A DNA stretch of 64,000 nucleotides from Macrocystis pyrifera (taxonomy: Eukaryota > Sar > Phaeophyceae > Laminariales > Laminariaceae): assembly GCA_031763025.1 (NCBI GenBank), contig JASSKH010000025.1, forward strand, positions 5,040,689-5,104,688. The letters are read 5' to 3'. Under the pieces are notes generated by a model, which saw nothing but the letters and a program-made list of their open reading frames with translations, was not told the DNA's origin and ran no database searches. How positions within the stretch are numbered: the stretch's first letter is position 1; the number at the start of each line of letters is the position of its first letter. Both the position numbers and the translations under genes were made by a program. Shown here piece by piece: positions 5,852-38,505 of this stretch.

Positions 5852-8800
5852 CTACTCTTGTCCTCTCTGGCGGTCTCCCGCTGAGCGCGCCTCCGCGGCT
5901 GTTTCTGCTGCTGCTGTTGTTGCTGGTGGTGGTGGTGCCGCTGCATTCGCCGTTGCAGGCATCACGGGGGGAGACCGCGGCGGCGACATTGCGGACTGTT
6001 CCATGGACTGTCCCACTGAATGGTCCGCGGGCTGGCCAATGGTTTGGTCCACAGGACGGTTCACGCACCGGCTCACGGACAGGTCTTCGGACTGGTCCAC
6101 GGCCTGGTCCGCGGACCGATTCAGCTCTCGACCTGCAGCACTTGAGGTGATCGAGTGCCGCGTCCGCTTGGCCGGCAACTGGTCAACGGGCTGGTCCACG
6201 GGCTGGTCTACGGACTGGCCAGTGGGCCGATCCAGCTCACTGCCTGCAGCACTCGCGACGACGGAAAATTGCCGCCGCTTGGCCGGCCCACTGCCACTAC
6301 TACTGTCCCCCTCCTGCCTCGCCTGATCGCCAACCTCACAAGCGACGGCGGCGCTGGTGGCGGCGGCCGCGTGCTCCCTCTTCACGTGCTTGGCGAGGGT
6401 GTGGCGGTGCGCGAAGGCCATCGTGCAGTCGCCGATCTCGCACCGGAACCTCTTGCGCCCTCCCTGCAAGACAAAATGGGTCGCACAGAATCCAAAGAAT
6501 GAATGGACGCGGTGGAACGATAACGCACGCCAGGTGTACGCGAGCACCGATTGGTACGGTGTGACCCACAAGCAAAGCCCGTTAAGGCCGTGTGACTCAC
6601 AAGCAAAACCCGCTGTGGCGACTGACCTAAGCCACTGCTTTTGGAGGGTTAAAAACAAAAGAAAAAACAAAGTAACGAACAACAAGGCCGGTATATATAG
6701 GGGCTTGATCGTTCTCATATAATCACCCTTTTCGAAATAAGAAAGCGGTAGAAACTTCAACACGTGTGGGGGGGGGGGGGGGGGGGGGGTGTACTCATTG
6801 TCATGCATGGCCGTAGTCGTATGACCATAGACCCTCGCATCCCTACAATGCCGGGACGGAGCACGTCAGGTTTTCACCGACCAGGCAGACATTGCTTGCA
6901 CCAAGCGCGAAGCGTCGTGAGGTGTCGGGCGAGTCGCATGAAGGGTGAGCATCCTACTAAGAACTGCTTTAGAGGCGGATTTTCTTGCATATGGATGACA
7001 GCATCAATGAATTGATTTTAATTTCTGGTGTGGCCACTTCCAGAGACGGGGGGGGGATACATCACACGGCCGCGGGCGAACAAAAAAAAAAAAAACAAGA
7101 GAGCCGAAGCTAAATTTAATATGTTGCGCACATCGAACAGATCATCTAGACCATCTAGATCATCTACCGATCCTGTATGTGCCCTTAGGAAACGCCGTGC
7201 AGGATCTGCATCGTACAGATCCCACCCACGAAGCCTGTGCTCGTAGACCACAAATACAAGAAAAAAAAATATGGCTGCCACGTGGCAAGTATTATCCATA
7301 GTAGGTCACTGAAAATTGTATAAGAAGATGAGGGAGCTAGTTATTCGCTGGATGATCTGGAACTTGAAATTGGGATCAGATCAGATGCCGTCCAACGTGT
7401 GGAATGCTGGCTTCCTGGTGGATAAATACACCAGGTATCTACCAGGTATATACCTGTTACCTTTTGCCGGTCCCTATTACGGGGGACCACAGTAAATAGG
7501 ACCAAATATTGTTAGAAAACATAAGGAAATATATAGTTTTTTGTGTGTGTACCGTAGGTCCTATTTACTATGGTCCCCCGTAATAGTTGTTGCCTTTCGT
7601 TGTTGGGACTGGATAGACTTCAAAATACTAACGGCTCTCGGGGTCTTTCAGTTATTTGTTCAGCTGAACTAAACGACATCGGATCTTGGCTTGCGTCGTC
7701 TCCACCCCACGACTGAACGCCTCCGAGGGGGAGTCTTGTACAAAACTACCGACCTTGGGGACCGTAAGGAGCGTTGAGATAGCACCGGGGTGCGATCATT
7801 TGCCAGCGCTCGATATTTCCAGAACGGGATGGAAGGTTGCCAAAAATACCGAACCAAAAGGTGCTTTCGGAAAGATCTGGTCGATTTTTCCAGAACGGGA
7901 AGGAAGGCTGCCAAAAACAAACGAACAAGGTGCCGTCTGAAGGATCTGCTCGATTTTTCCAGAACGGGATAGAAGGTTGACAAAAATACCGAACCAAGGT
8001 GCTTTCGGAAATACATCTGGCCGATTTTCTAAGAACGGGAAGGAAGGTTGCCAAAAATACCGAACCAAGGTGTTTTCGGACAGATCTGCTCGTTTTCTCC
8101 AGAACGGGAAAGAAGGCTGCCAAAGACAAACGAACAAGGTGCTTTCTGAAAGATCTGCTCGATTTTTCCGGAACGGGACGAAAGGTTTTGCCAAAAATAC
8201 CGAACCGAGGTGTTTTCGGAAAGATCCGGTCGGGAGAGAGCCTTCCGGAGAGACGATGGTTCGACTACAGCAGCACCCTTGCCGCTATCGAGAGAAGACG
8301 AGCGCTGAGAAAGGATAACACCCCTCTCCCTACGTGAACTCACGCTTTTGACGTACGCAAAATGTGCAGCACACGGCGACACGACTACCGCGCTATCTTG
8401 TGTAGCAGGGGCACATGTTTGTAGATTTTTTACGTGTTGTTTGTCCGCGGCACGGGCACGGTTAACGCCAGCACATACAGTACCGCAAAAAGCAAAAAGC
8501 AGGTCCCCGCTCCCCGTACGCATACAGGTGTAAGCACGCTTGACACCTGTAACAATATTTTTGAAACGTTTCCTACCCTTCCCCCCACGTGCGCTCGGGC
8601 TGTGCTGCGCCTACAGAAGAAAATAAACAGTGACGTAAAAAAACGCAACAAAAGAGCGCACGAAACGATAATCTCGTCTTCGCTGGCTGTCACCCCTAGC
8701 ACCAATTGCTACCAGGTATGAATAGATAGTCGATAACTACATAGCATCGACTGCTGGTTGGAAGCATTTTTTGCGTGGTCGTTGCGAAGCTGTGGGCTGG

Positions 8801-11800
8801 AAACGATGACACCAAAACGCGTCCAATACGTACGTACGAACACCGGTGGTTTCTCACGAACACACGCACTACTCTTGTCTCAATATAGAAGGACCGTTTT
8901 TTACGTCGACATTGAACACAAAACACTCCTTATAAATCGGTACAGAGCGGTAAGGTATGCACCAGGAAAATACGCGTCTGGTTTTGTCACCTCCGTGTGG
9001 ATAGTCCTCCGGTGAGCGTTCAGATTCCTCTTCTCGGTGAACGCCTTCCCGCAGCCCTGCACGTTGCAGGAGAAAGGCCGGATCAGGTCTCCGTTGCCGC
9101 CCCGAACGTGCGTCGCCTGGTGCATCTGCATCTTGTCCTCCCTGTCGAAAACCATGTCGCACACTCCGCACCTTTCGGGCGCGCACACGCGGGGTGTATG
9201 TATGCCCACCAAGAAAAAAGAGGGGCAAGAACAAACAAGGAGGATGGAGGACAAAAAATAAGATAACAACAACAAGAACAAGAACATGAACCCAGAACCA
9301 GACCGAGAACAACAATACACGAAGAACAAGGACAACAAGAAGAAGAACAACACTATGTCAAGAAGAAGAACTCGAAAGGTCAAACAAACAAAAAAAAAAC
9401 TGCCGACTTCGTGCTAGGAGTTCTACTTGGGTGTATTTTCGCGGTGCTGCAGCAGGGTTACGGAAACCCCCTTCACAAGCGCACCACCCGCATTAGGGTG
9501 ACAAACTGCTCGGAATTAATGTTGGACCATGGTTGCACAGATATCCTTAACCCCCCCCCCTCCCCTCACCCCCCCCTTCCGCCCCCCGACCACCCCCCAT
9601 CCCCCTCCCGTCCCCTGCACAACTCCACGGCAGCCCTCCACCCCCCCCCCCCACGGTTCATCACATCACATCACAGAACCGAACCGATACCCTCTCCCCC
9701 CCTTTCCCCCCCCCCCCACTATCTCCTCCCCCCCCTCGCCCCCCCCCCCTGACCTCCAACCCCCCCCTACCTCTCCCACTCCCCCCCTCCACCGCCTTCC
9801 ACAGTGCATCAAAATTACAGGCGCACTTTAATCCGCCAAATAGTAGTATCACACCTACCGGAAAGGGTGTTCCTCCCTCAAGTGAAGGTTGAGCCCGGAG
9901 GCTAACACGAAGGCCTTGCCGCAGCCGTCGAACTGGCAGACGAACCGCGCCGCGTGTGTCTTCGCGTGCGTCGCCAGCTTGCTCGGCCGGTCGAACAGCC
10001 GCCCGCAGCCCGGGTGGGTGCATCGGTGCTGCCTGCTGTTGTGCCTGTTTCGTTTTATTTTTTCGGTTGAGTTTTTAATTTTTTGTTGTTTGTTTTTTTT
10101 TTTTCGTTAAAAAAAACAAAAGAAACGGTAAGGGCGAGCGAGCGAGCGAAAACACATGGAGTGCCCGATTAATCGTACGTTGTTTGCTGCCGCGCGTGCA
10201 GACAGTCCGACTGGGTGGGAAGGCATCACTAACGGTGCCTGCTGTTTAGCCTTCGTGTTTTGTTTTTTTTTTCATCGAAAAATAATTTTAAAAAACAGTT
10301 TTTTTCGTCGTGAAGACAGAAACGAACACGGGAGGAGCGAAAAAATGCAGTTGGCCGCTTAGTCCCGGTGGAGGCATCGGTGTTGCCTGCTGTTGTGCCT
10401 TTTTTTTCTTTTTTAACGTTACGAACAAACAAAAAAAACGTTAAGGGAGTGCGATCGACCGATTACAGATGCAGTGCCCGGTTATCGACATCTGTTGCAG
10501 CCGGTGCAGACAGTTCGGGCGGGGGTCATCAACAATGGTGCCTCTGCTGTTGTGCCTGGAAAAATGTTTTTGTTCGCTTAAACAGGAGAGAAAAAAAAAA
10601 AAAGTCAAGACAGAAACAACAAAAAGAGACGAGCGAAAAAACGCACTTTGCCGGGTCGTTGTTGCCGCGTATGAAGCACTACAGTACGGGGGAGGGCATC
10701 GGACAGTATGGGGGAGGGCATCGGTGTTGCCTGCTGTTGTCCCTTTACAGCAAAAAAAAAAAAAAAGGTTCGACGCAATTTTTCGAGAGGTTTTTTTTTC
10801 GAAACTTGGGCGCGCGGTCCTGAAGACGGTAAGCACTGGAGGTGCCATCTCTTGGTGTCTACTTCTGCCCTCGATTCCGAATGGCGTTTCATGGCTCGGA
10901 AACAAGTTCGGCGGGCGTGTTTCTTAGGTTAGGAATGTCCACATAGAGATCCTGCACCGGATGTCCTATCGCCAGGGTAGGATAGTAGCTGAACTCCAGT
11001 GAACGTAGATCATGATCTATCCAATACGTGCACGATTCCACGCCCCCCCCCCCCCGCAAGACAAAAAACTCACTTAGTCTGGCCGTGCGCGGAGAGAAAA
11101 TGCTCCCGAAGCTGCCACTTCTTAGCGAAGGCCGCTCCACAAACCCCGCCCACCCCTACCCCTGCCCCGCCTGGGGCTACTTCCTCTCCGCCGACACCGC
11201 CGCTGCCGCCACGATCCTTCCCCTTCTCGCCAAGCCCGGTCCTCTCCGTGTCTCCTTCATCAGGCGCATGCCTCCGGTCCGTCTCAGCGGCTGCTGTCGC
11301 TCCCTTCCACCCCTTCCTCCCGGAAGCGTTATCAATCGGGGCGGGGGGGGACGCGGGAGCGAGCGGGGGTGGAGGCAACGGCAGCGGCAGCGGCAGCAAC
11401 AGCAGTAGCGCCGGTAGCAGTAGCAGCAGCAGCAGCAGCAGCAGCAGCGGGAGACGAAGAGGAAGAGGAGGCTGGCAGTGGCATAGGGTGGTCGCACCTG
11501 TACGGTCGCGGCCCCTCGTGGATGGCTTTGATGTGACGCTTGAGGTGGTAGTTGTCAAGGAAGTTCCTTCCGCAGTTGGGGCAGGTGTGCTTCCAACCAC
11601 CCGCGTAGACGCGGCCGCTACTACCACTGCTGCTGCCGCCGCCGCCGCTTTTACCATCGCCAACTCTTCCGTTCACGCTTCCATCAAGGTTTCCGCCTGC
11701 TTTTCCATCTAGTGTTCCGTCGGCTTTTCCACCTGACCTTCCGCGCCCACCACCACCACGATTTTTTTTCGTCTCCGCCAGCTCCCTCTCCATCTGCGAC

Positions 11801-12603
11801 GTCGCCAAGAGCGGCGAAACCAGGGGTTGGCCTGAAGTCATCCCCTCCCCGGAAAAAGAAACGCCTGCGGCGGGTGAGGACAGCGCCGCGGACAGAGCCG
11901 CCCGTTGCCGAAGCTCCGCCTCACGCCGAGCCACGTTCCCCACCGACACCGACACTCCCATCTTTCTTCGCGCATGAGAAAGGGAGTGTCGCCTGAGTTT
12001 GTCCTTGGTCGCGAACGCCTTCGAGCACCTGAAACCTCGTTCAAGAGCGACACAAGAGGCGGCGAGGGTACGAGGGGGAGAGGGTCGGGATGGACGGGGG
12101 GGGCGGACACGACGTGACACCCGGGCGTTTAACGTGAGTTACTGCGAACACTACATGACTCGAGAAGAGACACGACACACAAAATCATCAGCAAAATCAA
12201 TACTGCTGTCACCATACGACCATCAATATCAAAATCCTTGCGGAGAGCTGTCTCATCATGAAACGCCTCTTCCATCCCATCAACCATCTCACCCGTCCTC
12301 TTTGCAGGCGAACGGCTTCTCCCCCGTGTGAGTGGTGGCGTGGCGCACCAGCTTGCACGCCTTCGAGAACCTCTTCCCGCAGACGAAGCACTCGTGATCA
12401 CGGTCCCCGTCCCCTCCCCACCCCCCCCCCCCCCGCCGCCGCCGCCCCAACCCCTACCCCAACCCCCGCCTCGGTGTCCGCCACTGCTAGTGGTACTGCT
12501 GGCAGCACCCCCCACGGACGGAGCATCAGTCCGTGGCTGCTGGGGCAACAAGGCACGCGGCCGTTGCAAACCACCGTCCTCCTCAATAGTCTCTCTACTT
12601 CGC

Positions 12604-12635
<32 letters not shown>

Positions 12636-13655: not shown

Positions 13656-13850
13656 GCCATCCCTGATCAAAAACGCCTTCGAAAACACGGAACACCTTCA
13701 TGATTGTTGTGTACCTGGATGCACCTGTGCGCTGGAAAACAGGCTGCGCTTTAGGGAAGCAGACGAGCCATAAGCTCGGCTGAGACTGCAGCATTCACTA
13801 GGCAAGCACTACAGCTGGGTTTCCACGTGCGAGCGAAGCTCTTACCCGCC
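13656..13850. promoter_or_regulatory. Divergent promoter region, TFIIIA / NOL10
   Basis: About 195 bp lie between the most upstream TFIIIA ATG (13655, minus) and the NOL10 ATG (13851, plus), or about 460 bp if TFIIIA starts at 13388. I see no TATA box or clear known motif. The head-to-head layout itself is the evidence for a shared promoter region. Confidence 0.5.
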
Positions 13851-16800: not shown

Positions 16801-17357
16801 GCCGCCCCCCACGAAAGGATACATGGCGCAATAAGGGTCTCGTGTCCATATCCCACGACTGCGGCCACATCCCCGGGGAGGGGATAAATTTCCGGCAAAA
16901 CGTTTCTGTATGCGATATGTGGAAACAAGGTATTGAGCACCCCAGCTGTTGGAGGTGTCTCTGTTAGGCGTAGGAACGGTGCTGGGAACGGTGCTCCGTC
17001 TCGACAGGGGTGCGTGGTCAAGTGGTCAATGGTCGAATTGCTGAGGCAAGTAACAAACGAGTACCCCCCCCACACACACTACCCCCATTGTTGCCTCTCT
17101 GAAAGTGGTCACACCGAAAAATATATTATATCATTGAAACTATCATCCTTATGCAAGTCCGCCTCGTGAGCGGTTCTGCGTAGAGGCTGCAGCGCACACC
17201 CTTCACGCGATTCTCCGAAGACCTTACGGCGCTTCCTCGCGCTTGGTGCAACCCAATGTCTGTCTGATCGGTGAAAACCCTACGTGCCCCGTCCCGGCGT
17301 TGTAGAGATGCGAGGGTCTAGGGTCATACGACTACAGCCATGCATTACATCGAGTAC

Positions 17358-17395
<38 letters not shown>

Positions 17396-17650
17396 ACCCC
17401 TACGTCCCACCCCTGCCCTCCACCCCCGCAGTGTTTGATGTAAACGATCTGTCGATGAAGTTCGAGAGGCACCTGGACTGCGAAACGATCGATTTCATGC
17501 CGCTCGCTGACGGTTACGAAAAGCTCGCGTTCCTATTGGCCGACCGAACTCTGGCGTTTCACGCCGGCTACGGGAGGCACCACTCCGTCAGAATACCACG
17601 CTTCGGGAGGTCCCTGGCGTACCAAAGGGAAACCTGTGAGTTTGTACCTG

Positions 17651-17683
<33 letters not shown>

Positions 17684-18940: not shown

Positions 18941-18985
<45 letters not shown>

Positions 18986-19915
18986 AGGGGGGGGGGAAGG
19001 AAAAGACCGGAGGGGGAAGGAGCGAGCAAAACAGAGGGTGAAGAAGGAGGAGGGAGAGAGCGGGGAGGGAGACGGGGGGTGCTTGGTTGTTTGCTTGCTT
19101 GCACATCCCCCCCCCCCCCCCCCATTAGATATCACCTAGCGCTCTCCCCTCCTCGCAACTAACAGCTCTTTCCGGTACACCCTCCCCCCCCCCCCCCCCC
19201 CCCCCCCCCCCCGACCCCTCCTCCTCTCTGGAGACAGCTATAGGAGCGAAGGCTTTGACGCCTCAATACACAGTAAGAACCCCCCCCCCTCCCTGCGAGG
19301 TAACAAATAAACGAGCGAACGAACGAAGCTGTAACGCCTCAATATACAGTGTAAGAACCCCCCCAACCCCCCCCCTATTTGCAAGCTAACCCAATAAAAG
19401 CACCAACACATTGTTACGCCTCGTTTAAACGGAAACCCCGCGGCGGGCATCAGCAAGACACAGCTCTGCGTCGCGCACCAGCCGGTGGCCTCCCCCGCCC
19501 TCCCTTTGGCAAGCCAACCAAAAACTAACGGGCCGACGTTTTACAAGCCGACTCTTTAACGCCTCCGTATGTACAACACAACACAAACGTTTTCACCCTC
19601 CTGTGCGACAGAAACCCCACACGGAGGGTATGAACGCGATAGCTCTCCTGCGTCGTGCACACCAGCTGCTGGCCTCCCTCATCTCCCTTCCCCCCCCTTG
19701 GCAAGCAAAGCAAATGGGCAAGTGCGGAAACTGCGGTAGCGTTGTGAACCCCTTAAGTATCCCCTTGAGGACTCACTGCAGTCCCGTGATGGGGATGAAG
19801 CACTTGGGAGTGGAGTCACGGCCAGGTTTCTGTACAGTGCAGTAGTATTCATAATTAATAGAAGGCTTTAACGCCTCGATACAGTAGAAACCCCGCGGCG
19901 TGCATCACGACGCCC

Positions 19916-19950
<35 letters not shown>

Positions 19951-20800: not shown

Positions 20801-20838
<38 letters not shown>

Positions 20839-21510
20839 AGTAACATCATGCATGGCCGTAGTCAACACACGCTTAGTTAGGGGTTTCCAGGTCGGTGAGG
20901 GGATGGGGTGTAGGGAGGGCTTGACCTTCGGGGGGCGGTGGGGATGGCAACGGCGAACGCCACCTAGCAAAACGCACGAGGTTTTACAGGTTGGTAGGGG
21001 GCGGGGGTGGGGTTGGGGGATATATAGGGGTCGGGGTGAGGGCTGACCTCCAGGAGGCCGTGAGATCATGAGGGCGGCGACAGCGAATGCTGCGGAGAGC
21101 AAACGCTTGGGGGGTTCCACGTCGGTTGAGGTTGGAGGTAGGTGATAAGGGGTAGGGGGGTGGGGGGGGGCTTGACCTTCGGGAGGTGGTGGGGGCGACG
21201 GCAATGACCGCCGCCGAGCAACCAACTAGGGGTTTCCAGGTTTGTTGGGGGTGGGGAGAAGGGACCGCCGCCGCCGCCGCTAGAATTTCCGCGGGAGGGT
21301 GGCGATGAAAATGAAATACTACTGTTTGTAGGCACCGGTATGAAAATATTGTTTTTGTGCCTTGTCGTACCTGGTATTTGTTCGCCGTGTTGTATACAAG
21401 GTGCATTACCAGGTGTAAAACAACTGATGTCAAAATAACTGGTGCCTGGTATGGTTGGCCTTGGTTTTGTCCATTTGCTTTCGTTCATCAGTTGAGGCTC
21501 TTTGATTATC

Positions 21511-24131: not shown

Positions 24132-24166
<35 letters not shown>

Positions 24167-27100: not shown

Positions 27101-27530
27101 GACAACAACGACCACCACCACAACAACGACCAATGACAACAACGACCGCCACCACAACAACAACGACAACAACGACCACCACAACAACGACGACGACGAC
27201 GTTAAGGTGGAGGAGCTCGGCGTGTCGAACCTGGTCGGTACCCCCCTCCTGAGGGGCTACATGCACGGGTACTTCATGGACATGAAGCTTTATACCAGGT
27301 GCGCTATGGGGGGAAAAGGATGGGGGTGTACTCAAAATGTCGTATGACCGTAGACCGTCGCATCCCTACAAATGCCCGAGGGCGGAGCCGGTCGGGTTTC
27401 CACGGACCAAGGGGGGCGTAAATTTGGTTTCTTACTTATATAACATGGCGTTTGTTTTGCTTCCTACAGCGTTGTTTTTTGGAGGGATACCTCAGCCTTG
27501 GGATCGAGAAAAACATATTCAACCTTCTGT

Positions 27531-27575
<45 letters not shown>

Positions 27576-29387: not shown

Positions 29388-29422
<35 letters not shown>

Positions 29423-31761
29423 CGACAACATTCGACAATAATGGCACCAAGACGTGAAGACCTGCGTATCTTATGCGGTCGAATCGATGGTCTTTTGGTG
29501 CGGTCAAAACGTAGTAGCGCACTTCGAGCAGACCACGAGCAGTACGTAGTAGCGCACTTCGGGCTGACCAAGATCCCTTCTAAATAAAAAAAAAGCATGT
29601 CGTTCGTTTTTAGTAAAATGTTAGTACAGGCAGTGTATACGAACCTTCCTTATGGTCGGGATATGGCGACCGTTTTCGTGAAATGTTGCGGTGTAGTAAG
29701 ACATAGGTGCTTGCAGTTAGCTTCAGAGCGGTATTGTGTGTATATCCTGTAGATTCCACCCGCCGGGGAACATGCTGTGAAATATCTTCGGTAGACTGTA
29801 CAGATCCCCCCCCTACGGCCATGCATGATACTGAGTACACACACCCCCTATATTATATACCTGGTATATATAGATATAGGTGGAGTTGTCGGTTGGGGCG
29901 AATACGCTGTAAAACACGCCTCTCACTGCTTGAGCTAGACACACCTGGGTACCGTTTGTTTCTTTTTTCTTTTTTGCGGTCACCGCGGCTGGCGGTCGAG
30001 TTAGATCATTTTTGTGCGGAGGGAACCTTAGCTCCGCACGAGGGGGATGATCGTATCACGTAGTTGTGTATATGGTAAGGCGTAGACGAGGCAGTTACAT
30101 AGCGAACCCATTGCTGTCTCTGGAAGTGGCCACACCAGAAAAAGAAAAAACGATTCATTGACGCTGTCACCCATGTGTAAGAAAATCCGCCTCAAAAGCG
30201 GTGCTTAAAAGGATGCAGCTCACCGTCCGTGCGACTCGCCAAACACCTCACGTTCCGCTTCGCGCTTGGTGCAAACAACGTCTGCCTGGTCGGTGAAAAC
30301 CCGACGTACTCCACCCCGACATTGTAGAGATGCGAGGGTCTATGGTCATACAACTACGGCCCATGCATGACATCGAGTACCCCCCCCCCCCCCCCCCCCC
30401 CCCCGCCCGCCCGAGAAAGGAGCATGCAGTTCCCATACGAAGATAATCGGTATATATATTTATATTCGTCCGAAATTATCTAGATGGAAAAAAAACAGGA
30501 TCTGAACTGTTCGACGTGTGAAACGTACCAATCTGTCCCTTTTTATAAGCACCGATCACTCTCAGTAGTAATATTAAAAATATCTTTATATCGAGGGACA
30601 GAGTGGTACTGTAGTACACACTACTCTTGGCGGAAATATAAGGGATGATTGGTACTAACATCAGTGTCTGAACGATCGTTATATTTTCGTCCAGGGTGTG
30701 TACTTGTATGAAAAAAAAATGAAGGTGTGAGAGATCGAGAATTTCTTCTCACCTCGTCTTTTGATGTTATGATACGGCCTTGAATGAGGTTGAAAGCCCG
30801 GTAATTACCTGGGCTCAGGCACTGGGATCGTATTTATAGTACTTGGAAGGCGTATCTTGGGTGGAAAACCAGGGGGGTTTTCCAGAGGGGCACGAGCTTG
30901 GTCTCCGTCTCCGCGTGCACGAAAGGAACAAAAACTGCTCTTCTTCTATCTCTAAGCAAGCGTCACACGTGAGTACCAACGAGTACCGACTTAATAGGCA
31001 AAAACCTGTCCAGGGATACGAAGTGTCCCGCCTGCGTGATCTTAACAAGTGGCGTCGTCGGCAGGAGTCCTGCTGATTGATCTTCAACAGTGATGATTCG
31101 ATCGCGCGTTCTACCCAGTGGTCTGCAAAATTATTGCAGCTTTTTGTGAGCAACGAACTCGCTACCCGCCAAGGATGTCATGAAAAGGCGACGGCTCAGC
31201 TGTAGTCACGGTATACTCCCACACGTCGTATATACAGGTATTTACTGTAATAAAGTATGCCATACAAGGCGACTACTGTAGTCACTGTATACTCCTATAT
31301 ATATACAAGTACTCTTGGTATTTGATAGAGTAGTTTGTCGCTCCATTATTTATCACGCATGTTTTTTTGCATTTTCTGCCGAAAAAAAAATAGTTTTATT
31401 TTTATGTGCATTTTTCTCGTCGCGGTGAGCTTGAGAGCGTAAGTTGGAAAAAAATCGATGAAAATAGATAATGATCGCCTGGTGTTTTTGTAATTCCCGC
31501 CAAAAGCTTACTTTAGGTGTCTTCTTTCTCGTCGCGGAAATCTTGAGAGCTTGAGTTACGTAGCTAAATTCGATGAAAAACACGGACGAGCAGAAAAGGG
31601 AACGCTGAGCCCTCTGCGCGATGAGCATGTAGGAGAAAGAAGGGGAGACACCTACTTATCTACCTGCCTACCTGCCTACCTGCCTACCCGCCTACCTACC
31701 TACCTACCGGTGACTACGGCCTTTTGTCCAGAGGGCTTAGAAAGGAAACGTGAGGGCTTAA

Positions 31762-31800
<39 letters not shown>

Positions 31801-33289
31801 CTGCACGTACATAAACATTCGAAGTGTTGCTTTTTTTTTGTTTTAGACCTTTTTTGGGTCGGTGTCGGCAGAATTTCACGACTAAAAGCAGTAACAAGTA
31901 CCGCTGTGGGCGGAAATAGAAGGACCGTTGTATATCCATGTTTATGTTATAAACGATTCTTATATTATCGGCCAGAGCGGAAGTCGGAAGATGCCGTTAG
32001 CCGTCTATAAATATATATATATCACTGAAATTTTGTCGGCTGGCGAGAGCGGCCAGCTGATGACCAGTCGATGAAAATGGCTAATCGTGCCGGTGGCTGG
32101 TGACTTCATTCACCCTTATATAGTCCCGTTTGGGGGGACGACCTACTCAAGAATTATAAGCAGTGTGTCGCCAAAACGGACGTGACCGACTAGAACCGCA
32201 CTCCCGTTTTGTCCCCACGTATTGCGCGGATCAAAACACTTAGGATTACAGTAGTATCAAATTTATAGTCATGTGCAGCAGTACAGTGCTGTCAAAGGCT
32301 CACAGCTCTCTACCGTTCTCGAGAATACAGAGCTGAACCAAAAAAAAAAAAAAAAAAAACTCGCTCTGTTTTTTTTTCGGTTTCGGTTTTCGGTTTCTGG
32401 TTTGGTTTGGTTCGGTTCGGTTCGGTTCGGTTCGGACTGTGCAGATGCAGCAGCAGGAGGAGGAGGAGGAGGAGGAGAGGTCTCGAGCAGAAACCCTCTG
32501 GGAGACGACCGATTCGGCGCCATGTTCGAGTCGGCCGCGTTCGAGGTGGACAAGGAGAGCGAGGAGTACGCCAGGGCGCACCCCACGTCCCTCATCGCGA
32601 ACAAGATGGTATGTATGCATGTTCATTGCACATCGCCGCGGCTGTTGTTGCCGTCCGTGGGGGCTGGGGGCGGGGACGGTGGTGGTATGTAGGGCAGAAG
32701 GAGAAACGATGGTGGGGTGGTGGGGGGTGGTGGTGGTGAGAGTGGTGAGTTTGGATGTGTTGTGCCGTGTTGAGGGGGCGACGGTGGTAGCATTTTGCGG
32801 TTGTGCTGTGTTGGTGGTGGTTGTGTTGTCGTGGTGATGTTGTCGTTAGTGTTGGTGTTCGATGGGGGGAGGGGGCGGCGGGGTTCGTAGCTGCTGTCAC
32901 TTGCGCTGTTCTCCGACTGTTTTTACGGGTTTCGCGCTCCCTTCCCTATTCTTTCTCCTGCGTATGCTAGCTTCGGTACTATCACATTCATCAGGATGCA
33001 TTTCTTAATCCTACTGCTTGTAGTGTCAAGGTGCGAGTCTGTTAGGATCGCATCCATCTTGCCTACGTGTGCTTTACCCTTTCCTACCACTTTTGCTATA
33101 CCCTATGTGTATCCCAAGAGCGACGGGTACGAAAACGTGGGTTCGGCAAACCGAAACAATGCCCCCACCTCGGCGGGAATGGCGCGGGGTCGGGGGGGGG
33201 GGGGGGTTGCGGTGGGGGTGGGAATGGAGGCCTATTTGAGGGTGCGGGTAGTGTCTGCGTGTTAAGAAAGGGCGTTGCAATGGTGAATT

Positions 33290-33325
<36 letters not shown>

Positions 33326-36300
33326 CGTACTCAAGTCTTGCTTGCCTCAGTCCTTTGACCATTGACCACGCATCCCTTTCGAGACTGGAGGCGGGGGGCG
33401 GGGGCGGGGGGGGGCGTACTCATTTGTTGCTTGCCCTTTGTCTTTTGGTCCTTGACCACGCATCCCTTTTGAGACGGGGCATGAGGGAGGTACTCAATTG
33501 TTGGTTGCCTTGGTCATTTGACCATTGACCACGCGCCCCTTTCGAGACGGAGCGATAATAGTGGAGGGGGGAAGGGGGGGGGGGGCAGGAGTGAACCCAC
33601 GGTTGTTACACTGCGCTGCGTTGATTGTCTTTGCTTTCGTAGAGCGTGGGTTGTGCGACCGTTTTTTTTTTTCTTCTTTTTTGTACGACCTACTTTCTGG
33701 TGTCAGCTCGACCAAGCTGCGTTTGGTGGATAGATAGATACTGCTGTACTGTTTTTTTTTTTTTTTCAAATCCGAATAACCGCTCCGTTATTTTTCCGAT
33801 GCGAGCCCCCCCCCCCTCCAAAAAAAAACAAAAAACGGCAAGGTATCACCCGCTACATTTTTCAGTTAAGAGCGTTCACGCGTCGGACAATCGAGACCCC
33901 CATCTCATTGTCTACTTACTGTACAGTACCTACTTCGGGTCAGATGTATTATTGCTGTAGATCTATTCTTACGTATCTTCAGGGCAGCTGTATTCGTCAT
34001 GTATCCTTTTTGTGATGTAAATGTATTATAGATGTATTAGGGCCCATCTTAACGGGGACTTTCGGCCCTTTTTAATTTGCCTTGATTTTTTTTTTTTCTA
34101 ATTTAATTTAAGGGCCCATCTTATCGACGACTTTCGGTTCTTTCAATTTGACTTGGTTTTTTTTTTTTTTTCTAATTTAATTTGCATCTGATTCAAACGA
34201 AATTTAGTGTTCCCCGTTAAGATGCGCCCTTGTTGTTCGTTTTTATCCCCCGTCATAATTTTCTCTGATCTTTCCGCGTTCTTATATGATCGTTTTTTTT
34301 TGCTATTTTTTATTTATTCACATTTTATTCTTTTTGCTCGGGCGATACAGCGACAGAAAACGGAGGACGAGGCAGAGTCCGAGGACGACGCCATCGAAGA
34401 CCGATTCACCAGAGTTACCGGCCGCTCCCGCCGGGGGAGGGGGGGGGGCGCGTTCCGACTCGGAGGAGGGTTCTTCGTCGTCGTCGGATGACGGTTTCAG
34501 CGGGGGCGAAGGCGAAGGGGAGCATGATTCAGGGGTCGACGAGCCGGTGAGATTATTTTTTTTTTTTCTTGGTTGGTTGGTTGGTTGGTTGGCTATTGCG
34601 GGGGACCATAGTAAATAGGACCTACGGTACACACAAAAACCTATATATTACCCTATTTTTACCAACAATATTTGGTCCTATTTACTATGGCCCCCCGTAC
34701 TAGTTGGTTAGTTGGTTCGGCTCGTCGGTTGGTTTATTGGTTGCTCAGTCGGTTTGTTGATTGGTTCGTTGGTTAGTTGGTTTAGTCGGTTGGTCAGTTG
34801 ATTCATTGGTTGTTGGTTTGTTGGTTGCTCAGTCGGTTGGTTAGTTGGTTAGTTCGTTGTTTAGTTAGTTGGTTAGTCGGTTGGTCAGTTGGTTCATTGG
34901 TTGTTAGCTTGTTGGTTGCTCAGCCGGTTTGTTGGTTAGTTCGGTGGTTAGTTGGTTAGTCGGTTGCTCAGTTGATCCGTTGGTTGTTAGTTTGTGTGGT
35001 TGATCGTTTTTATGTGTTCGTAGTTATTTTCTTGTCTGTCTCGTGTGTTCCGTCTGTTTTTTGTTAGTTTCGTTTAGTTTTGTTTCGTTTTGTTTCGTTT
35101 TGTTTGTTTGTACTCTTATATTGGTAAAACCCCCTGCTATTATTTCGGGAAAACCCCATTTCTAGCGGAGAGGGCGTTGAGGCACGGTACTACGCAGACC
35201 GAAAAAATGGCGGGAGGCTGCTCGCGTGTGCTTCGTGTCGCAGAATCAGCCACTATGATGCCACCCGATTAACGCGATGGAATTACACTTGAAATGGAAT
35301 GGAAAATATGGAGGGCATGTGTGGGGACGGCGCATCAGATGGGTTTTGAGTGGAATATGGAACACGGAATGGAATTTGGAAAAGGAAATCAATCTGGAAG
35401 GGATTTTGGAATGGAAAGGAAAATCGTCATGGGATTGAATTAAAATGTGGAACATGCGTGCCAACGGCGCCAATGTGGGACGGAGCCCCTGGCGGATTCT
35501 CTCTTGTGTGCGTTTTGTGTGGAGGACACACGGTGCCTCGGCTGCCTCGGCTTAGTATTGCCGGAACGGAGCGAGGGGCCTCTGGTGACCTTGAACTTGT
35601 GAGGGGCGACTCGGTACTATCTATAGGGGGAGGGGACCTGGTATCCGAATATGGCATGGAGTCCGGGATGAACAGAAGTACGCAATGGATAGGGATTGTG
35701 GGATGGAATGCCTAGCAGCTGTGTATTAAGCTGTGAACGAAATCCCCCCCATCACCCCCCCCCCCCCCCCCTCCCCCTCCCCTTGGTCAGTGAAAACCCG
35801 ACATGCTCCGTCCCGGCATTGTAGAGATGCGAGGGTATGTGGTCATACGACTACGGCCATGCATGAGATCGAGTACATCTCTCCTATCGAGTACACCCCC
35901 CCCCCCCCCCCCTTAATGTCTGCCTGGTCGGTGAAAACCCAACGTGCTTCACCCCGGGCATCATTGTAGGGGTGCAAGGGTCTATGGTCATACGACTACG
36001 GCCATGGATGACAATGAGTACGCCCCCCCCCTCCCTGCCCCCTCTTCCTTGCACCAGGCCGCGGCGAGGCGCGGAAGCAAGACGGGTACGAAAAAGGATA
36101 TGAGTAAGAGCAAACGGAGTCGTCCGTCGACTCGCACCCCCGGGTTCTACGAGCTCAACGAGGAGGAGGACGCCGCCACCGCCGCGGTAGGCCTGGGAGG
36201 AGCACGGGACAAGGAGACGCAGGCCAAGAAACGGAGGTACGAGTTGGGTGGTGTGGTGGTGTGTGGAGGGTGGTACGGGTATAGAGTATAGAGGGTCAGG

Positions 36301-37650
36301 TAAGGGCATGGGTAGGATATGTGTAGGGTATGTGTAAGGGTATGGGTACGGGTATAGGCAAGGGGGAGTGTACGGGTATGGGTAAGGGTAAGAGTAAGGG
36401 TATGGGCAAGGGTAAGGGTAAGCGTAAGGGTAAGGGTATGGCTAGGGTAACGTTAGGAGTGGGTGGGAGTAGGGATACTGTAGGCGTATGTCTGGGGGCA
36501 CGGTTGGGACGGGATGAAGGGTAAGGACACAAGTAGGGGTGGGGGGGGGGGGGCGGGGAGGGGGGGGAGTAAGGTAGAGTCATTTGGTAGGGGTAAGGAT
36601 CGCGATAAGGTATGGTGGGTGGGGTGGGGTGGGGGGGTGGGGGTAAGGGTAGGAGTGGAAGGGGGTAAGCGGAGGTGGAGTGCGCCGGGAGGAGAACGGG
36701 ATGACGAGCCCCAGGCTCACGAACGGCGGTATTAGCTGGACCGAGCGGAACGGAGTGGAGTGGTGTGGTTCGGGGTCGGGTGGTAGTCAAGGTAAGAGTA
36801 GGGATTAGAGCGGCGGTATGCGTAGGTTTAGGGATTGGGTGGCGTGTGGGATGGAGTGGGGTTCGTGTATTGACGTTACCGTGTGGATTTCCATCCGGCA
36901 GTGGCAGTCTATTGTCCTCAGAAGTGGGGGTGGGGGGGATGGGGGGGGGGGGGCTTGGGTAGTGGCGCGGGGAGATGGGGCGCGTGATGATGCTCGTCTC
37001 CGACCTCACTCATGTTTTGGGCGATCCGAGGAGGAGTGGAGTGTTGGTTCGGGATCTGGCATGGAGCAGGGCTGCGCTGTCTACCAAGCTCCATCACATC
37101 ATCAACCTCCCTCCCTGGGTGTCCCTTCTCTAAAGGGATGCGTGGTCATTGGTCAAAATACTAAAGCGATCAACAAATGAGTAGGCTCCCTCCGGCCTCC
37201 CCCGCCCCCCCCCCCTCCCCCACTCCTAAGCTAAACTAACTTCCCCTTTCTCCCTCGCGAACCTACCCTTCCAGGATGCGAGCAACGCCGCTAGCGGATC
37301 GCATAAGCGAGGCGGAGCGGAGCGAGGGCGCTATCGTTGATGATCGCGTTATACGCACCAGCGCCGGGGTAGTGCGAGAGTTTTCCTACGCCCCTGCGGC
37401 GGCATCAGGGGGTAGGGGACGGGGCCAGGGAAGGGGGCGGGGACGAGGCAGTTCCGGTGGTGAAGAAGACGGAGGGAGCGGGAGGGAGGAAGGGGAATGG
37501 GGGAGGGGGAGGGGGAGAGGGAGGGAGGGTGGGCGAGGAGGCGGGGGGGGGGGGGGCGCGGTGGGGGTAGGGGGCGCGGTGGTGGGAGGGGGGGGGGTGG
37601 TGGCGGGGGGCGCAGAGGAGGGGGGAGAGGAAGAGGAAGAGGGTAACTGA
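13851..37650 (+). CDS. NOL10: NOL10/Enp2-like WD-repeat nucleolar protein
   Basis: Predicted SSU-processome factor for 18S rRNA maturation in the nucleolus. Exons: 13851-13908, 16151-16332, 17432-17635, 18694-18801, 20190-20343, 22201-22353, 23189-23319, 26280-26457, 27207-27298, 27740-27854, 28620-28750, 32445-32608, 34351-34546, 36058-36236, 37275-37650 (about 807 aa). Recognised by MQVSTFHGVKIYNLSSG at the start, GKTLPQWLS and RKRIELLQDFDFP in exon 2, SMKFERHLDCE in exon 3, RFNLDQGRF in exon 4, WD-type blades in exons 5-7 (GFVHLWDSR, VKEHQYGLPV, VKIWNRDDG), LGPAPRWCSFLD in exon 8, LRGYMHGYFMD in exon 9, EPFAYEEYRKKK in exon 10, a NUC153 segment (DDRFGAMFES..DKESEEY) in exon 12 and PGFYELNEEED in exon 14. 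Phases agree at all junctions except four frame breaks: exons 2 and 4 (one base short), 11 and 13 (one over or two short), each beside a C or G run. The Gly/Arg/Glu-rich C-terminus is longer than in animals. The ATG at 13860 aligns with the usual family start. Confidence 0.9.
14133..14226. mobile_element. F4 palindromic element
   Basis: Arms TCCGAAAATGTAAGAAC and GTGCTTACATTTCCGGA are imperfect inverted repeats around a short AT-rich centre. Confidence 0.5.
15868..15976. mobile_element. F1 element copy 3
   Basis: Forward orientation in NOL10 intron 1; the left end has a G7 run where the consensus has GGGGGACC. Confidence 0.85.
16317..16321 (+). other. C5 run, likely one base short (NOL10 exon 2)
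   Basis: As written exon 2 ends in phase 0 but exon 3 needs one carried base. One extra C here restores the phase and turns ..TYPLRSR into ..TYPPQIK-V-F-D, the expected family sequence, with donor AAGG/GTGAGT. Confidence 0.75.
16926..17090 (+). mobile_element. Family B repeat with C-run tail
   Basis: Runs from CAGCTGTTGGAGGTGTCTCT through GGTGCGTGGTCAAGTGGTCA to ACGAGTAC followed by C8. It is immediately followed by a family A copy, so two different C-tailed repeats sit head to tail. Confidence 0.6.
17092..17393 (+). mobile_element. Family A repeat with C34 tail
   Basis: Starts near TTGCCTCTCTGAAAGTGGTC, passes TCGGTGAAAACCCTACGTG and ends CATCGAGTACAC followed by about 33 C. It sits in NOL10 intron 2, so the C run also supplies the pyrimidine tract a few dozen bases before exon 3. 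Confidence 0.65.
17650..17680. repeat. TA dinucleotide repeat
   Basis: About 15 TA units directly after the exon 3 donor (GTGAGT at 17636). Confidence 0.8.
17975..18665. repeat. Degenerate AACCGA hexamer array
   Basis: About 690 bp of AACCGA / AAGCCGA / AACCCG variants in NOL10 intron 3, ending about 30 bp before exon 4. It is interrupted at 18254-18320 by a pseudo-exon resembling exon 4. Confidence 0.75.
18279..18318 (+). pseudogene. Duplicated start of NOL10 exon 4 (pseudo-exon)
   Basis: A strong acceptor (TTTGTTTTTTTGCAG) is followed by bases that in the incoming phase read C-GMLWGAGTEIWN, matching exon 4 (CDMLVGDAG.EIQ) for about 12 codons. It then runs into the hexamer repeat with no continuation. 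Confidence 0.55.
18943..18984. repeat. G run of about 42 bases
   Basis: Nearly pure G inside a purine-rich stretch of NOL10 intron 4 (18820-19080). Not adjacent to a family A or B repeat, so it is an independent homopolymer. Confidence 0.8.
19255..20165. repeat. Array of decayed copies of the NOL10 exon 5 start
   Basis: Units begin with (T)AACGCCTC near 19258, 19333, 19415, 19556 and 19868. The best copies (19430-19490 and 19609-19690) carry GAAACCCCGCGGCGGGCATC and CTCTGCGTCGCGCACCAG, nearly the same as the real acceptor and first 60 bases of exon 5 at 20173-20250. Long C runs at 19107, 19183 and 19917 lie between units. Confidence 0.7.
20330..21300. repeat. About 110-bp array from the NOL10 exon 5 end
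   Basis: About seven units, each with CTTGACCTCCGGGAGGCGGTG (or close), then GCGGCGAAC, GGAGCAAACACT and GGTTTCCAGGTTGGTTG. The first unit is the 3' end of exon 5 with its donor (GAGGCG/GTGGGG); the others lie in intron 5 and repeat that donor context. Confidence 0.75.
20799..20862 (-). mobile_element. Family A end fragment with G run
   Basis: About 38 G followed by TAGTAACATCATGCATGGCC and GTAGTC, the C-tailed end of family A in minus orientation, embedded in the 110-bp array. Confidence 0.5.
21514..21545. repeat. G run of about 32 bases
   Basis: Pure G in NOL10 intron 5, followed by TGTATTTTGTCACTC; no clear family A or B sequence beside it. Confidence 0.8.
21751..21830. mobile_element. 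F4 palindromic element, best copy
   Basis: Left arm CCACTCTGACCCGAAATATA with GGGTCCGTT and right arm AACGGTCCTTATATTTTGGG with TCAAAGTGG form a near-perfect stem around an AT-rich loop. Confidence 0.7.
21880..21993. mobile_element. F3 element
   Basis: Ends GAACCCATCTTAACAGGGAA and GTCCCCGCTAAGATGGGCCC are inverted; the AT-rich centre includes an A10 run. It is homologous in opposite orientation to 34040-34231. Confidence 0.6.
22009..22079. repeat. GTT/GCT trinucleotide repeat
   Basis: About 23 units of TGT/TGC just upstream of NOL10 exon 6. Confidence 0.85.
22991..23096. mobile_element. F1 element copy 4
   Basis: Forward orientation; the left end is degenerate (TACGTGGGACC) and the right end reads GTCCCCCGTAGTA. 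It ends about 90 bp before NOL10 exon 7. Confidence 0.75.
23980..24093. mobile_element. F1 element copy 5
   Basis: Reverse orientation and the most decayed right end (GGCCCCTCATAACAATA). Confidence 0.75.
24470..24582. mobile_element. F1 element copy 6
   Basis: Forward orientation; left end TATTTCGGGGGATCATAG is diverged, right end CCCCCGTAAAA. Confidence 0.75.
25071..25180. mobile_element. F1 element copy 7
   Basis: Forward orientation; ends TATTATGGGGGACC and GGTCCCCCGCAATA. Confidence 0.85.
25643..25753. mobile_element. F1 element copy 8
   Basis: Reverse orientation; left end TATTACGGGGGGTCCATAG, right end GGTCCCCCGTAATA. Confidence 0.85.
26048..26141. mobile_element. F2 palindromic element
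   Basis: Begins ACCCTTTTAGGACTGCGGTC and ends GGGACTGCACTTCTGAAAGG; the internal halves GGGGGACAAACCGCT and AGTTTGTCCCC pair. Confidence 0.7.
26995..27205. repeat. CAA/ACC/GAC trinucleotide array
   Basis: About 200 bp of CAACAACGACCAACGACAAC-type repeats running to within a few bases of the NOL10 exon 9 acceptor (GACGTTAAG). This leaves that acceptor without a normal pyrimidine tract. Confidence 0.8.
27312..27412 (-). mobile_element. Family A fragment
   Basis: GGGGGTGTACTCAAAATGTC, CGTATGACCGTAGACC and CGGGTTTCCACGGACC match the tail end of family A, in minus orientation, just after NOL10 exon 9. Confidence 0.5.
27533..27576. repeat. CTGC tetranucleotide repeat
   Basis: About ten CTGC units in NOL10 intron 9. 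Confidence 0.85.
28724..28729 (+). other. G6 run with phase conflict (NOL10 exon 11)
   Basis: Exon 11 ends with two carried bases but exon 12 (frame of LGDDRFGAMF) needs one. Five or eight G here would fix it and give an acidic tail (EEGDEDGD) instead of GRGRRRR. Confidence 0.5.
29388..29420. repeat. CAG trinucleotide repeat
   Basis: About eleven AGC/CAG units in intron 11; not in a coding frame. Confidence 0.85.
29810..29846 (+). mobile_element. Family A tail fragment
   Basis: CCTACGGCCATGCATGATAC then TGAGTACACACACCCCC, the last 35 bp of family A, directly before a full-length copy. Confidence 0.5.
29860..30404 (+). mobile_element. Full-length family A element with C tail
   Basis: About 545 bp, collinear with the inverse copy at 37832-38373. 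It begins near ACCTGGTATATATAGATATA and includes GTAAAACACGCCTCTCACTG, GGAAGTGGCCACACC and GCGCTTGGTGCAA. It ends GACATCGAGTAC followed by about 26 C. No protein coding seen, so it is non-autonomous. Confidence 0.7.
30596..30702. mobile_element. F4 palindromic element
   Basis: Contains GGCGGAAATATAAGGGATGA and CGATCGTTATATTTTCGTCC as imperfect inverted arms. Confidence 0.55.
31655..31710. repeat. CTAC/CTGC tetranucleotide repeat
   Basis: About twelve CTAC or CTGC units with CCGC variants. Confidence 0.8.
31763..31800. repeat. CAA trinucleotide repeat
   Basis: About thirteen uninterrupted CAA units. Confidence 0.9.
31898..31985. mobile_element. F4 palindromic element
   Basis: GGCGGAAATAGAAGGACCGT and ACGATTCTTATATTATCGGC with CAGAGCGG are the paired arms. 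Confidence 0.55.
32111..32217. mobile_element. F2 element, degenerate
   Basis: GTCCCGTTTGGGGGGACGAC and GAACCGCACTCCCGTTTTG retained; the stem is largely lost. Confidence 0.45.
32375..32436. repeat. GGTTC pentamer array
   Basis: GGTTT/GGTTC repeats ending 9 bases before NOL10 exon 12, in the position of its pyrimidine tract. The same motif recurs at 57.38 kb. Confidence 0.8.
33293..33556 (-). mobile_element. Three tandem family B ends
   Basis: Three copies (about 33293, 33408 and 33487) of a G run or purine tract, then TACTCA, TTGCTTGCCT and TTGACCATTGACCACGC with CCCTTTCGAGAC. On the minus strand each ends GAGTAC followed by C. Confidence 0.6.
34040..34231. mobile_element. F3 element, partial plus full copy
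   Basis: A left-end fragment (GGGCCCATCTTAACGGGGAC, 34040-34110) is followed by a full copy that begins AGGGCCCATCTTATCGACGA and ends TTCCCCGTTAAGATGCGCCC, suggesting insertion of one copy beside or into another. Confidence 0.6.
34439..34448 (+). other. G10 run with frame break (NOL10 exon 13)
   Basis: Before the run exon 13 reads RQKTEDEAESEDDAIED in phase with exon 12. After it the frame compatible with exon 14 reads ARSDSEEGSSSSSDDG. The two differ by one base lost (or two gained). Confidence 0.6.
34570..35000. repeat. GGTT-rich array with longer period
   Basis: GGTTGGTTAGTTGGTT repeats with a recurring longer block (GGTTGCTCAGTCGGTT, CAGTTGRTTCATTGGTTGTT) about every 100 bp in NOL10 intron 13, split by F1 copy 9. 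Confidence 0.7.
34594..34702. mobile_element. F1 element copy 9
   Basis: Reverse orientation; left end TATTGCGGGGGACC, right end CCCCCCGTACTA. It sits within a GGTT array that continues on both sides, so it appears to have inserted into that array. Confidence 0.85.
35785..36030 (+). mobile_element. Two family A 3' ends in tandem
   Basis: Copies of GGTCAGTGAAAACCCGACAT and CTGCCTGGTCGGTGAAAACC each run to (GAGTAC)A/G-C(n): tails at 35896-35912 and 36021-36029. The second tail ends about 28 bp before NOL10 exon 14. Confidence 0.6.
36300..36680. repeat. GGGTAA / GGGTATG hexamer-like array
   Basis: AAGGGTAAGGGTATGGGCAA-type repeats and G-rich degenerate extension in NOL10 intron 14. Confidence 0.7.
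37095..37195 (+). mobile_element. Family B 3' end
   Basis: AAAGGGATGCGTGGTCATTG, GTCAAAATAC and AACAAATGAGTAGGCTCCC; the C tail is short and interrupted. Confidence 0.45.
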
Positions 37651-37831
37651 CTGCTGCGGCGGCGTGTAATGCTTTCGTTGGCGGTTGATCGGCGGCTGGG
37701 GCGGGGGGGGGGGGGGGGGGGTTGGGATTGAATGTGGCAGATAGGTGCGTTCTTGCGCCGCCGCGGTGGCCGCGGTATTTCAGGTAAAAATATTGTTTCG
37801 GATGGTGGGGATGGGGGTTACATCGGGTGGG

Positions 37832-38373
37832 GGAGGGGGGGGGGGGGGGTGTGCTCATTATCATGCATGGCCGTGGTCGTATGACCATAGACTCTCGCAT
37901 CCCTACAATGCCGGGACGGAGCACGTCGGGTTTTCACCGACCTGGCAGATATTGCTTGCACCAAGCGCGAAGCGCCGTGATGTGTTGGGCGAGTCGCATG
38001 AAGGGTGAGCTGCATCCTACTAAGAACCGCTTTAAAGGCGGATTTTCTTGCATATGGATGAAGGCATCAATGAATTGATTTAATGTCTGTTGTGGCCACT
38101 TCCAGAGACAGCAATGGGTTTACTATGTAACTGCCTCGTGGGTGCCTCACCATATACACACTGCTTGATACGATCGTCCCCCTTGTGCGGAATACAAGTT
38201 CTCCCCGCACAAAAATGATCTAATTCGACCACCAGCCGTGGTAAGCGCCAAAAAACAAACAAAAAAAAAAAAACGGTACCCTGGGTGTCTAGCTCACGCA
38301 GTGAGAGGCGTGTTTTACACCGTCGTCGCCAACCGACGCCAACCCAACCTATATATATATACCAGGTATTTAA
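37832..38373 (-). mobile_element. Full-length family A element, inverse copy
   Basis: Begins with G18, then TGTGCTCATTATCATGCATG, and runs about 540 bp to ATATATATACCAGGTATT. It is collinear with 29860-30404 along its whole length, which defines the element boundaries. Confidence 0.7.
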
Positions 38374-38383
38374 TATAGAAAGG

Positions 38384-38505
38384 GGGGGGGGGGTACTTAT
38401 TTGTTGCTTGCCTCAGTCATTTCATTTGACCACTGACCACGCATTCCATTCGAGCCGAAGCACCGTTCCTACGCCTAACAGAGATACCTCCAACAACAGT
38501 TATGA
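38384..38505 (-). mobile_element. Family B element
   Basis: G12 then TACTTATTTGTTGCTTGCCT, CCACTGACCACGCATTCC and CCTAACAGAGATACCTCCAA. It follows family A at a distance of about 10 bp, the same A-B association as at 16.9-17.4 kb. Confidence 0.65.

Follow-up and report, generated by a model that had tools for sequence, protein, structure and literature searches.

The genome of the kelp Macrocystis pyrifera contains thousands of copies of a LINE and of a short non-autonomous partner that have a common 3' end, behind which a run of C replaces the usual run of A. In the Macrocystis pyrifera assembly (537,376,219 bases, 223 contigs), GAGTA followed by nine C occurs 7,741 times, compared to 51 times for the reversed-pattern control, and GAGTAC followed by A or G and nine C occurs 11,680 times, compared to 15 times for the corresponding control. 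An earlier note on the window, i.e. the whole 64,000-nucleotide stretch analyzed here, had described two repeat families, A and B, that end in GAGTAC plus a C-run. This end is indeed present in the window, where GAGTACC5 was found twice (expected 0.12) and GAGTACAC3 five times (expected 0.10), and the whole-assembly counts extend it to the genome. According to PMC10498591, the assembly was built from PacBio reads, so that homopolymer lengths may be off. The copies of both families in the window are compiled in Table 1.

Table 1. Copies of family A and of the LINE (family B) in the window.
Element	Copy	Position	Strand	Tail and surroundings
Family A	5'-truncated copy	6790..7047	-	3' tail C22 (6768-6789); 5' junction C9 (7048-7056)
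LINE (family B)	3' fragment	16895..17063	+	followed by C8, then the family A copy at 17084
Family A	5'-truncated copy	17084..17358	+	tail C35 (17359-17393)
Family A	tiny 3' end	20838..20862	-	tail C36 at 20802-20837; found by eye, under the blastn cut-off
Family A	fragment, last part altered	27339..27409	-	ends GAGTACACCC at 27324-27333
Family A	tiny 3' end	29814..29839	+	lies between a C8 run and full copy A1
Family A	full-length copy A1	29848..30379	+	C tail 30380-30404
LINE	internal body fragment, without 3' end	32888..33121	-	
LINE	tail-only copy, third of head-to-tail trio	33328..33390	-	tail C34 at 33292-33325
LINE	tail-only copy, second of head-to-tail trio	33417..33481	-	tail C9 at 33406-33414
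LINE	tail-only copy, first of head-to-tail trio	33491..33553	-	
Family A	5'-truncated copy, doubled end (second GAGTACA)	35785..35877	+	tail C17 at 35896-35912
Family A	5'-truncated copy	35915..36021	+	head-to-tail with copy 35785..35877; tail C9 at 36023-36031
LINE	tail-only copy	37118..37183	+	ends ATGAGTA, then an interrupted C-rich tract
Family A	full-length copy A2	37850..38381	-	C15 tail 37835-37849; 5' end adjoins the C-run tail of the LINE fragment (38382-38393)
LINE	3' fragment	38394..38535	-	tail C12 at 38382-38393, then directly full-length A2
Family A	short diverged 3' end	51347..51384	-	5' junction at C9

Judged by its sequence, family B corresponds to the 3' end of a LINE that encodes AP-endonuclease and reverse transcriptase domains. 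Four LINE loci have up to 3.9 kb in common, ending in GAGTAC-C. Four of seven ORF pieces, originating from three loci, match the Pfam profile RVT_1 (1.4e-14, 1.1e-14, 8.5e-11 and 1.9e-7), and one ORF piece matches Exo_endo_phos (PF03372, 1.1e-10) above its cut-off. The 294-nt 3' end as query yielded 3,311 first-look candidates, compared to 646 for a 939-nt endonuclease query. The LINE is at least ~4.9 kb long; one copy spanning ~4.9 kb is bounded by C14 on the 5' side and by C15 on the 3' side. When the 3' end was probed at a fixed offset in six copies, three showed GAGTA+C29, GAGTA+C80 and GAGTACG+C15, and for the other three it was not found within the 241 nt fetched. The shared start of 34 of the 42 matches was considered as the LINE 5' terminus but rejected, because it marks the point where the reference copy is broken; the 20 copies fetched all continue upstream with a further ~50 nt in common.

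Family A has a consensus of 523 nt, built from 40 copies, and 10,527 first-look candidates genome-wide, 40 of which were scored. Its longest open stretch comprises 72 codons on the + strand, so that family A is short, non-coding, dispersed and of high copy number, as is typical for SINEs. Searches with simple A-box and B-box patterns gave no match, and an internal T20 run should stop Pol III. In the window, ARAGORN detected no tRNA and there was no Rfam match at the gathering score. As neither a Pol III promoter nor a head derived from a small RNA was recognized, we term family A SINE-like; an external TATA-type promoter is conceivable. The C35 tail of one truncated copy ends 38 nt upstream of the presumed start of a NOL10/ENP2 exon, the splice site being assigned by eye.

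Over their final ~54 nt, the consensuses of A and B are homologous, with a score of 58 against at most 34 in 2,000 shuffles, and the score remains high when the final 10 nt are removed (46, shuffle maximum 28 in 2,000 shuffles). This common end closes in GAGTAC, often with A or G next, before the C-run begins. The families had been described as unrelated in body but sharing the same end; the bodies do differ, but the likeness is not limited to GAGTAC. Because of the homologous ~54 nt, the two elements look like a 'stringent' LINE/SINE pair, in which the 3' end of family A appears to be derived from the partner LINE. A LINE with the same 3' end and a C tail, envisaged in the earlier note, thus exists, and the copies form the expected truncation series with a fixed 3' end and mostly shortened 5' ends. 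In family A, 94 of 102 stretches reach the 3' end, 38 reach the 5' end (all of these reach both) and eight reach neither; for the LINE, 33 of 38 reach the 3' end, five reach neither end, and two reach the 5' end of the 3.88-kb reference, which is itself incomplete. These counts omit stretches below 30 nt, T-run matches and stretches within 40 nt of a locus end, and they include stretches with any 3' reach, the 12-nt 3'-end filter having been lifted. The two consensus tails have part of a fold in common. Since 100 pooled individual tails (77 A, 23 B) gave no common fold, with almost none for the A tails alone (-0.6) and a weak one for the B tails alone (-8.1), we do not claim any structure.

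The 5' junctions were analyzed in stretches reaching to within 12 nt of the 3' end, which also applies to the tests for target-site duplications (TSDs). Loci contained in other loci (L001-L005, L026) and near-duplicates (L010, L013, L019, L021, L022, L023) were dropped from the junction, TSD, consensus, fold, tail-length and truncation analyses. L006-L025 had been picked by GAGTA+C9, so that their tail lengths are biased whereas their 5' flanks are not, and L027-L065 as best A matches. Two of 117 copies without 40 nt of upstream sequence were excluded from the junction count; among the remaining 115, 45 follow the tail of another element within 40 nt, and elements are thereby chained head-to-tail via C-runs. 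Of 70 solitary copies, 52 have a run of at least five C within 25 nt at the 5' junction, compared to 4.7% of random positions and to 6 of 68 when the same measure is taken 200 nt upstream; the last 25 nt of the other 18 contain no such run. Exact full-length family A copies start directly after C6 in 172 of 416 cases. The LINE copy L103 breaks at a C-run beyond its ~50 nt of additional shared upstream sequence; no C-run was found at the 5' breaks of the LINE copies labeled C26 and C2. As the 5' junctions are also C-rich, C-runs are probably a preferred target as well as a tail, and with 18 exceptions among the solitary copies this preference is strong but not absolute. The proposal that the C-run is the tail of a 5'-truncated retroposon therefore holds for the common 3' end followed by C, but not in the form that the C-run is a tail only.

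Across the genome, 202,535 runs of nine or more C were counted, and 19,421 of them (9.6%) carry either of the two exact end forms. Since these forms cover so few of the runs, most C-runs must have another source, and the elements, suggested as the origin of many long C/G runs, are one source but not the main one. Similarly, only seven of 70 runs of eight or more C on both strands of the window have GAG(T/C)AC within the preceding 20 nt, and three more have GTA directly before the run, so that most C-runs in the window are not tails of A or B elements. These numbers bear on a model along the lines of the earlier note, in which poly(C)-tailed RNAs insert without target preference and C-runs are products only. 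The genome-wide association of GAGTAC with C and long tails such as C80 are in line with this model, but it is very unlikely in view of the C-rich 5' junctions of solitary and exact full-length copies and of the ~90% of C9+ runs that lack either exact end form.

Target-site duplications around body plus C-run, for which the earlier note had proposed a test, received no statistical support. In the anchored test, duplications of at least 7 nt with at least two non-C were found for 4 of 77 solitary copies (permutations 2.5 +/- 1.6, with 74 of 300 reaching 4), those of at least 8 nt with at least three non-C twice (0.45 in permutations; 26 of 300), and those of at least 8 nt with at least one non-C 11 times (11.1 in permutations). 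The first, unanchored test with at least three non-C gave 20 of 70 copies versus 14.4 +/- 2.9 in 100 permutations, the largest value being 21. Pure-C duplications are invisible to these tests. L039 and L036 have convincing single duplications, which we do not take as proof. The negative TSD result, the tandem arrays joined through C-runs and the presence of near-identical duplicated contig stretches would also suit an origin without retrotransposition at C-runs, in which repair and recombination between C-runs, by way of slippage, break repair or segmental duplication, copied or captured the fragments. We regard this as extremely improbable, because the fixed 3' ends with graded 5' ends, the LINE coding capacity, the homologous LINE/SINE end and the thousands of first-look candidates all conform to the predictions of LINE-type copying.

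It is also possible, albeit rather unlikely, that all Cs come from the target, i.e. that the elements end at GAGTAC(A/G), own no tail and insert precisely into existing C-runs, as microsatellite-targeting LINEs do. In agreement with this, both element ends adjoin C-runs, the 202,535 C9+ runs are on offer for insertion, the tail at 17359-17393 lies within a pyrimidine stretch just ahead of the NOL10-like exon, and, when only C9+ runs are compared, tails do not significantly exceed the remaining C-runs in length (medians 16 and 14, P=0.13). However, among runs of six or more C, those following GAGTAC have a median of 14 (n=77), compared to 8.5 for those ahead of a family A start (n=12) and 8 for the rest (n=547; P 1e-10); L093 and later loci are also left out of this comparison of tail lengths. 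A second counterargument comes from the L053 site, which has C10TCCC and C8TC6 when filled: three of four related sites, which are repeat relatives and not alleles, resemble the downstream flank, with no more than C3, C4 and C4 in the place of these C-rich stretches. The fourth, L084, does not align clearly at the site, and twelve further copies of the L053-flank repeat diverge at the end of the repeat and tell nothing about the insertion site. Moreover, L039 has ~18 C-rich nt ahead of its recognizable duplication. The L030 flank was rejected as a probe for empty sites, since it proved to be the terminal part of a different repeat; in the seven relatives fetched, the similarity breaks off at CCTTGTA or immediately after it.

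From the sequences, target-primed reverse transcription is the likely mode of spread of a C-tailed LINE and of its non-autonomous, SINE-like partner, cytosine runs taking the place of the adenine runs used by L1 and Alu. The LINE enzyme would bind the common 3' end and nick the G strand of a C/G run, whereupon the terminal Cs of the RNA would pair with the freed G-run and copying would start. Homopolymer slippage may lengthen the tail. The upstream end would be joined within the same C-run, rendering the duplication invisible, and every new tail would be a target for the next copy. Alternatively, chains may arise when the polymerase switches from one RNA template to the C-tail of another. The chances are about even that the whole homopolymer logic has moved from A/T to C/G: a G-run-cutting enzyme would prime on terminal Cs, the RNAs of the LINE and its partner would obtain their poly(C) end by slippage or from a C-adding enzyme, and insertions would create fresh targets, with chains growing in introns and other C-runs. 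If so, LINE/SINE biology would not be bound to poly(A) or A/T-rich simple repeats, a natural enzyme priming on G-runs would be predicted, and some of the kelp genome's long C/G homopolymers would be accounted for.

We found no poly(C)-tailed retroposons in the literature searched, which is a weak test as the bracketed spelling poly(C) is not searchable. Relatives of family A (two patterns) and family B (one pattern) were not detected in viral_contigs, nor those of family A (one pattern) in genome_contigs, and none of the 14 pattern matches of the LINE reverse transcriptase piece in viral_contigs was confirmed; because these collections are viral and prokaryotic, the results say little about other algae. 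Among solved chains, the nearest by sequence are 8c8j (RNA-directed DNA polymerase, 1.1e-7) and L1 ORF2p (2e-7), followed by R2 (0.006). L1 prefers an A-rich target, and the kelp elements resemble L1 and Alu in that the terminal homopolymer matches the preferred target, 5' truncation is frequent and the endonuclease is of the AP type. They differ in using C for A, in inserting directly at the C-run and in the common sequence that LINE and partner have upstream of the homopolymer. A preference for simple-sequence targets and head-to-tail arrays are also found in the microsatellite- or telomere-targeting LINEs Waldo, Kibi and TRAS/SART, whereas the kelp target is a mononucleotide run, preferred strongly yet not absolutely. 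Stringent LINE/SINE pairs are known from eel and from Chlamydomonas (SINEX-3_CR and L1-1_CR; PMC3747384). The term 'poly c' was not found in that review, the bracketed spelling being outside the search. As described there, the non-autonomous partner carries a copy of the LINE 3' end at its own terminus and both close in the same simple repeat, as in the kelp pair; the ends named there include poly(A), (TTG)n, (TTGATG)n and poly(T), whereas the kelp end is poly(C).

Family B is a LINE that ends like family A, from which it differs in body. Both families were found where the earlier note had placed them, with slightly shifted borders, and the end that it had described as common to them, GAGTAC followed by a run of cytosines, is far more frequent than expected by chance. 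In the assembly searched (537,376,219 bases, 223 contigs), GAGTA followed by nine cytosines (C9) occurred at 7,741 sites vs 51 for a reversed-letter control, and GAGTAC-(A/G)-C9 at 11,680 sites vs 15. The published giant kelp assembly is described as 537 MB in 35 scaffolds and 188 contigs, obtained from PacBio reads (PMC10498591). The suggestion that such retroposons could have given rise to many long C/G runs of this genome was not supported in that form: 19,421 of the 202,535 runs of at least nine cytosines (9.6%, a share that would rise with diverged ends) bear either end form exactly, and most C-runs are of other origin.

A LINE with the same 3' end, the existence of which had been left to be checked, was detected in sequences extending about 4 kb upstream of GAGTA+C9 sites. 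Four loci shared up to 3.9 kb. Domain matches in their ORF pieces were to PF03372, an AP-type endonuclease (1.1e-10), and to the reverse transcriptase family RVT_1 (E as low as 1.1e-14); two of seven ORF pieces gave no convincing family. L1 ORF2p was among the nearest solved chains. The endonuclease stretch yielded 646 first-look candidates genome-wide (40 scored, 94-100% identical) and the 294-nt 3' end 3,311 (40 scored). Three of six probed LINE copies carried the expected 3' end (GAGTA+C29, GAGTA+C80 and GAGTACG+C15), which was absent from the 241 nt fetched for the other three.

Family A, with 10,527 first-look candidates genome-wide (40 scored), is SINE-like. Its consensus from 40 copies is non-coding, comprises 523 nt with an internal T20 run, did not match simple Pol III box patterns, and is homologous to the LINE consensus across approximately 54 nt at the end. 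A variant with a doubled 3' end has GAGATCGAGTACATCTCTCCTATCGAGTACA ahead of the C-run.

The fragments were mostly 3' ends, as anticipated for 5'-truncated retroposons. Without filtering for the 3' end, 94 of 102 A stretches contained it, 38 of these together with the 5' end, and eight had neither; among 38 LINE stretches, 33 had the 3' end and five neither end. In the window alone, where stretches were not picked for their ends, six of seven A stretches reached the 3' end and two the 5' end. In sets filtered for the 3' end, truncated A copies had 42 distinct starts between nt 140 and 506, whereas 17 of 32 LINE stretches began at nt 3817-3829 of the 3.88-kb reference copy, itself 5'-incomplete, where the shared tail starts, as if copying halted there or the tail moved by itself. 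These 17 stretches consist of the shared tail of about 65 nt alone, with a single break point. Exact genomic cases with C6 within 2 nt of the tail start numbered 145.

The 5' junctions were also rich in cytosine. Upstream sequence of 40 nt was available for 115 copies, and in 45 of them it contained another element's tail. The last 25 nt upstream of the 70 solitary copies contained C5+ in 52 and C7+ in 42 cases (random-position background, 4.7% and 2.2%); 200 nt farther upstream, the counts were 6/68 and 2/68. C6 directly preceded 172 of 416 exact full-length A starts genome-wide, and one LINE copy spanning about 4.9 kb was flanked by C14 and C15 (its two ends, 5' part, endonuclease stretch and 3' end were seen, its middle not). 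Not all copies fit: 18 of the 70 solitary ones lacked C5+ in the last 25 nt, and the LINE copies on contigs C26 and C2 had no C-run at their 5' breaks. The C-run is probably both target and tail. At insertion site L053, compared with four repeat relatives at related sites (not alleles), three of the four resembled the downstream flank and had C3-C4, in contrast to the long C-runs that border the insertion on either side. Median lengths of C6+ runs were 14 for GAGTAC-C (n=77), 8.5 before A starts (n=12) and 8 for other C-runs (n=547); for C9+ runs only, the tail median of 16 was not significantly above the 14 of other C-runs (P=0.13). A test for the target-site duplications that the earlier note had proposed to look for was negative; pure-C duplications would lead to just this outcome, but the test then lends no support either.

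Within the window, 13 of 17 element parts fall in a region where reading frames, judged by eye, suggest one NOL10-like gene. One exon matches ENP2/NOL10 (best E 5.5e-16); the presumed second exon had no match in the search. Two A copies have their C tails within 40 nt of presumed 3' splice sites of the NOL10-like gene, on the upstream side, so these elements may supply pyrimidine tracts to it. Two ORFs contain C2H2 zinc-finger-like motifs, recognized by eye, one of them starting within an A copy's 3' end and running on through the C tail of that copy. Three further repeats were noted: a palindrome-like MITE of about 110 nt (D9, ends GGGGGACCATAGTAAATAGGACC), one half of which had 17 matches in the window; a MITE-like repeat with inverted ends GTCCCGTTTTGGGGAC (1,509 first-look candidates); and a repeat with the sharp end CCTTGTA behind a GC-rich palindrome (1,656), the last two counts being for queries that take in the repeat, not the repeat alone.

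Coordinates of features in the window (nt unless stated), with other loci of the assembly where observed
Feature	Position	Strand	Other loci
LINE shared tail alone	33328-33553		
A variant, doubled 3' end	35784-35895		L014, L031, L052
D9 MITE	e.g. 3553-3662, 34593-34703, 38542-38651, 45537-45892		LINE copy of L024
Repeat with inverted ends	63090-63260		L070-L085
CCTTGTA-ending repeat	62574-62664		L086-L092
Zinc-finger-like ORF, starting in A copy	5852-6808	-	
Zinc-finger-like ORF	11332-12120	-	
Suggested NOL10-like gene	16.1-37.6 kb		
Exon matching ENP2/NOL10	17434-17637		
Presumed second exon	36058		
C tail of an A copy to presumed 3' splice site (two cases)	17359-17434, 36023-36058		

We found no precedent for a poly(C) end combined with C-run targeting in the open-access papers searched, in which bracketed poly(C) is unsearchable. 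The kind of system, a LINE plus a non-autonomous partner, is already known, and an end homologous to that of the LINE, as seen in family A, characterizes the non-autonomous member of stringent LINE/SINE pairs (PMC3747384).
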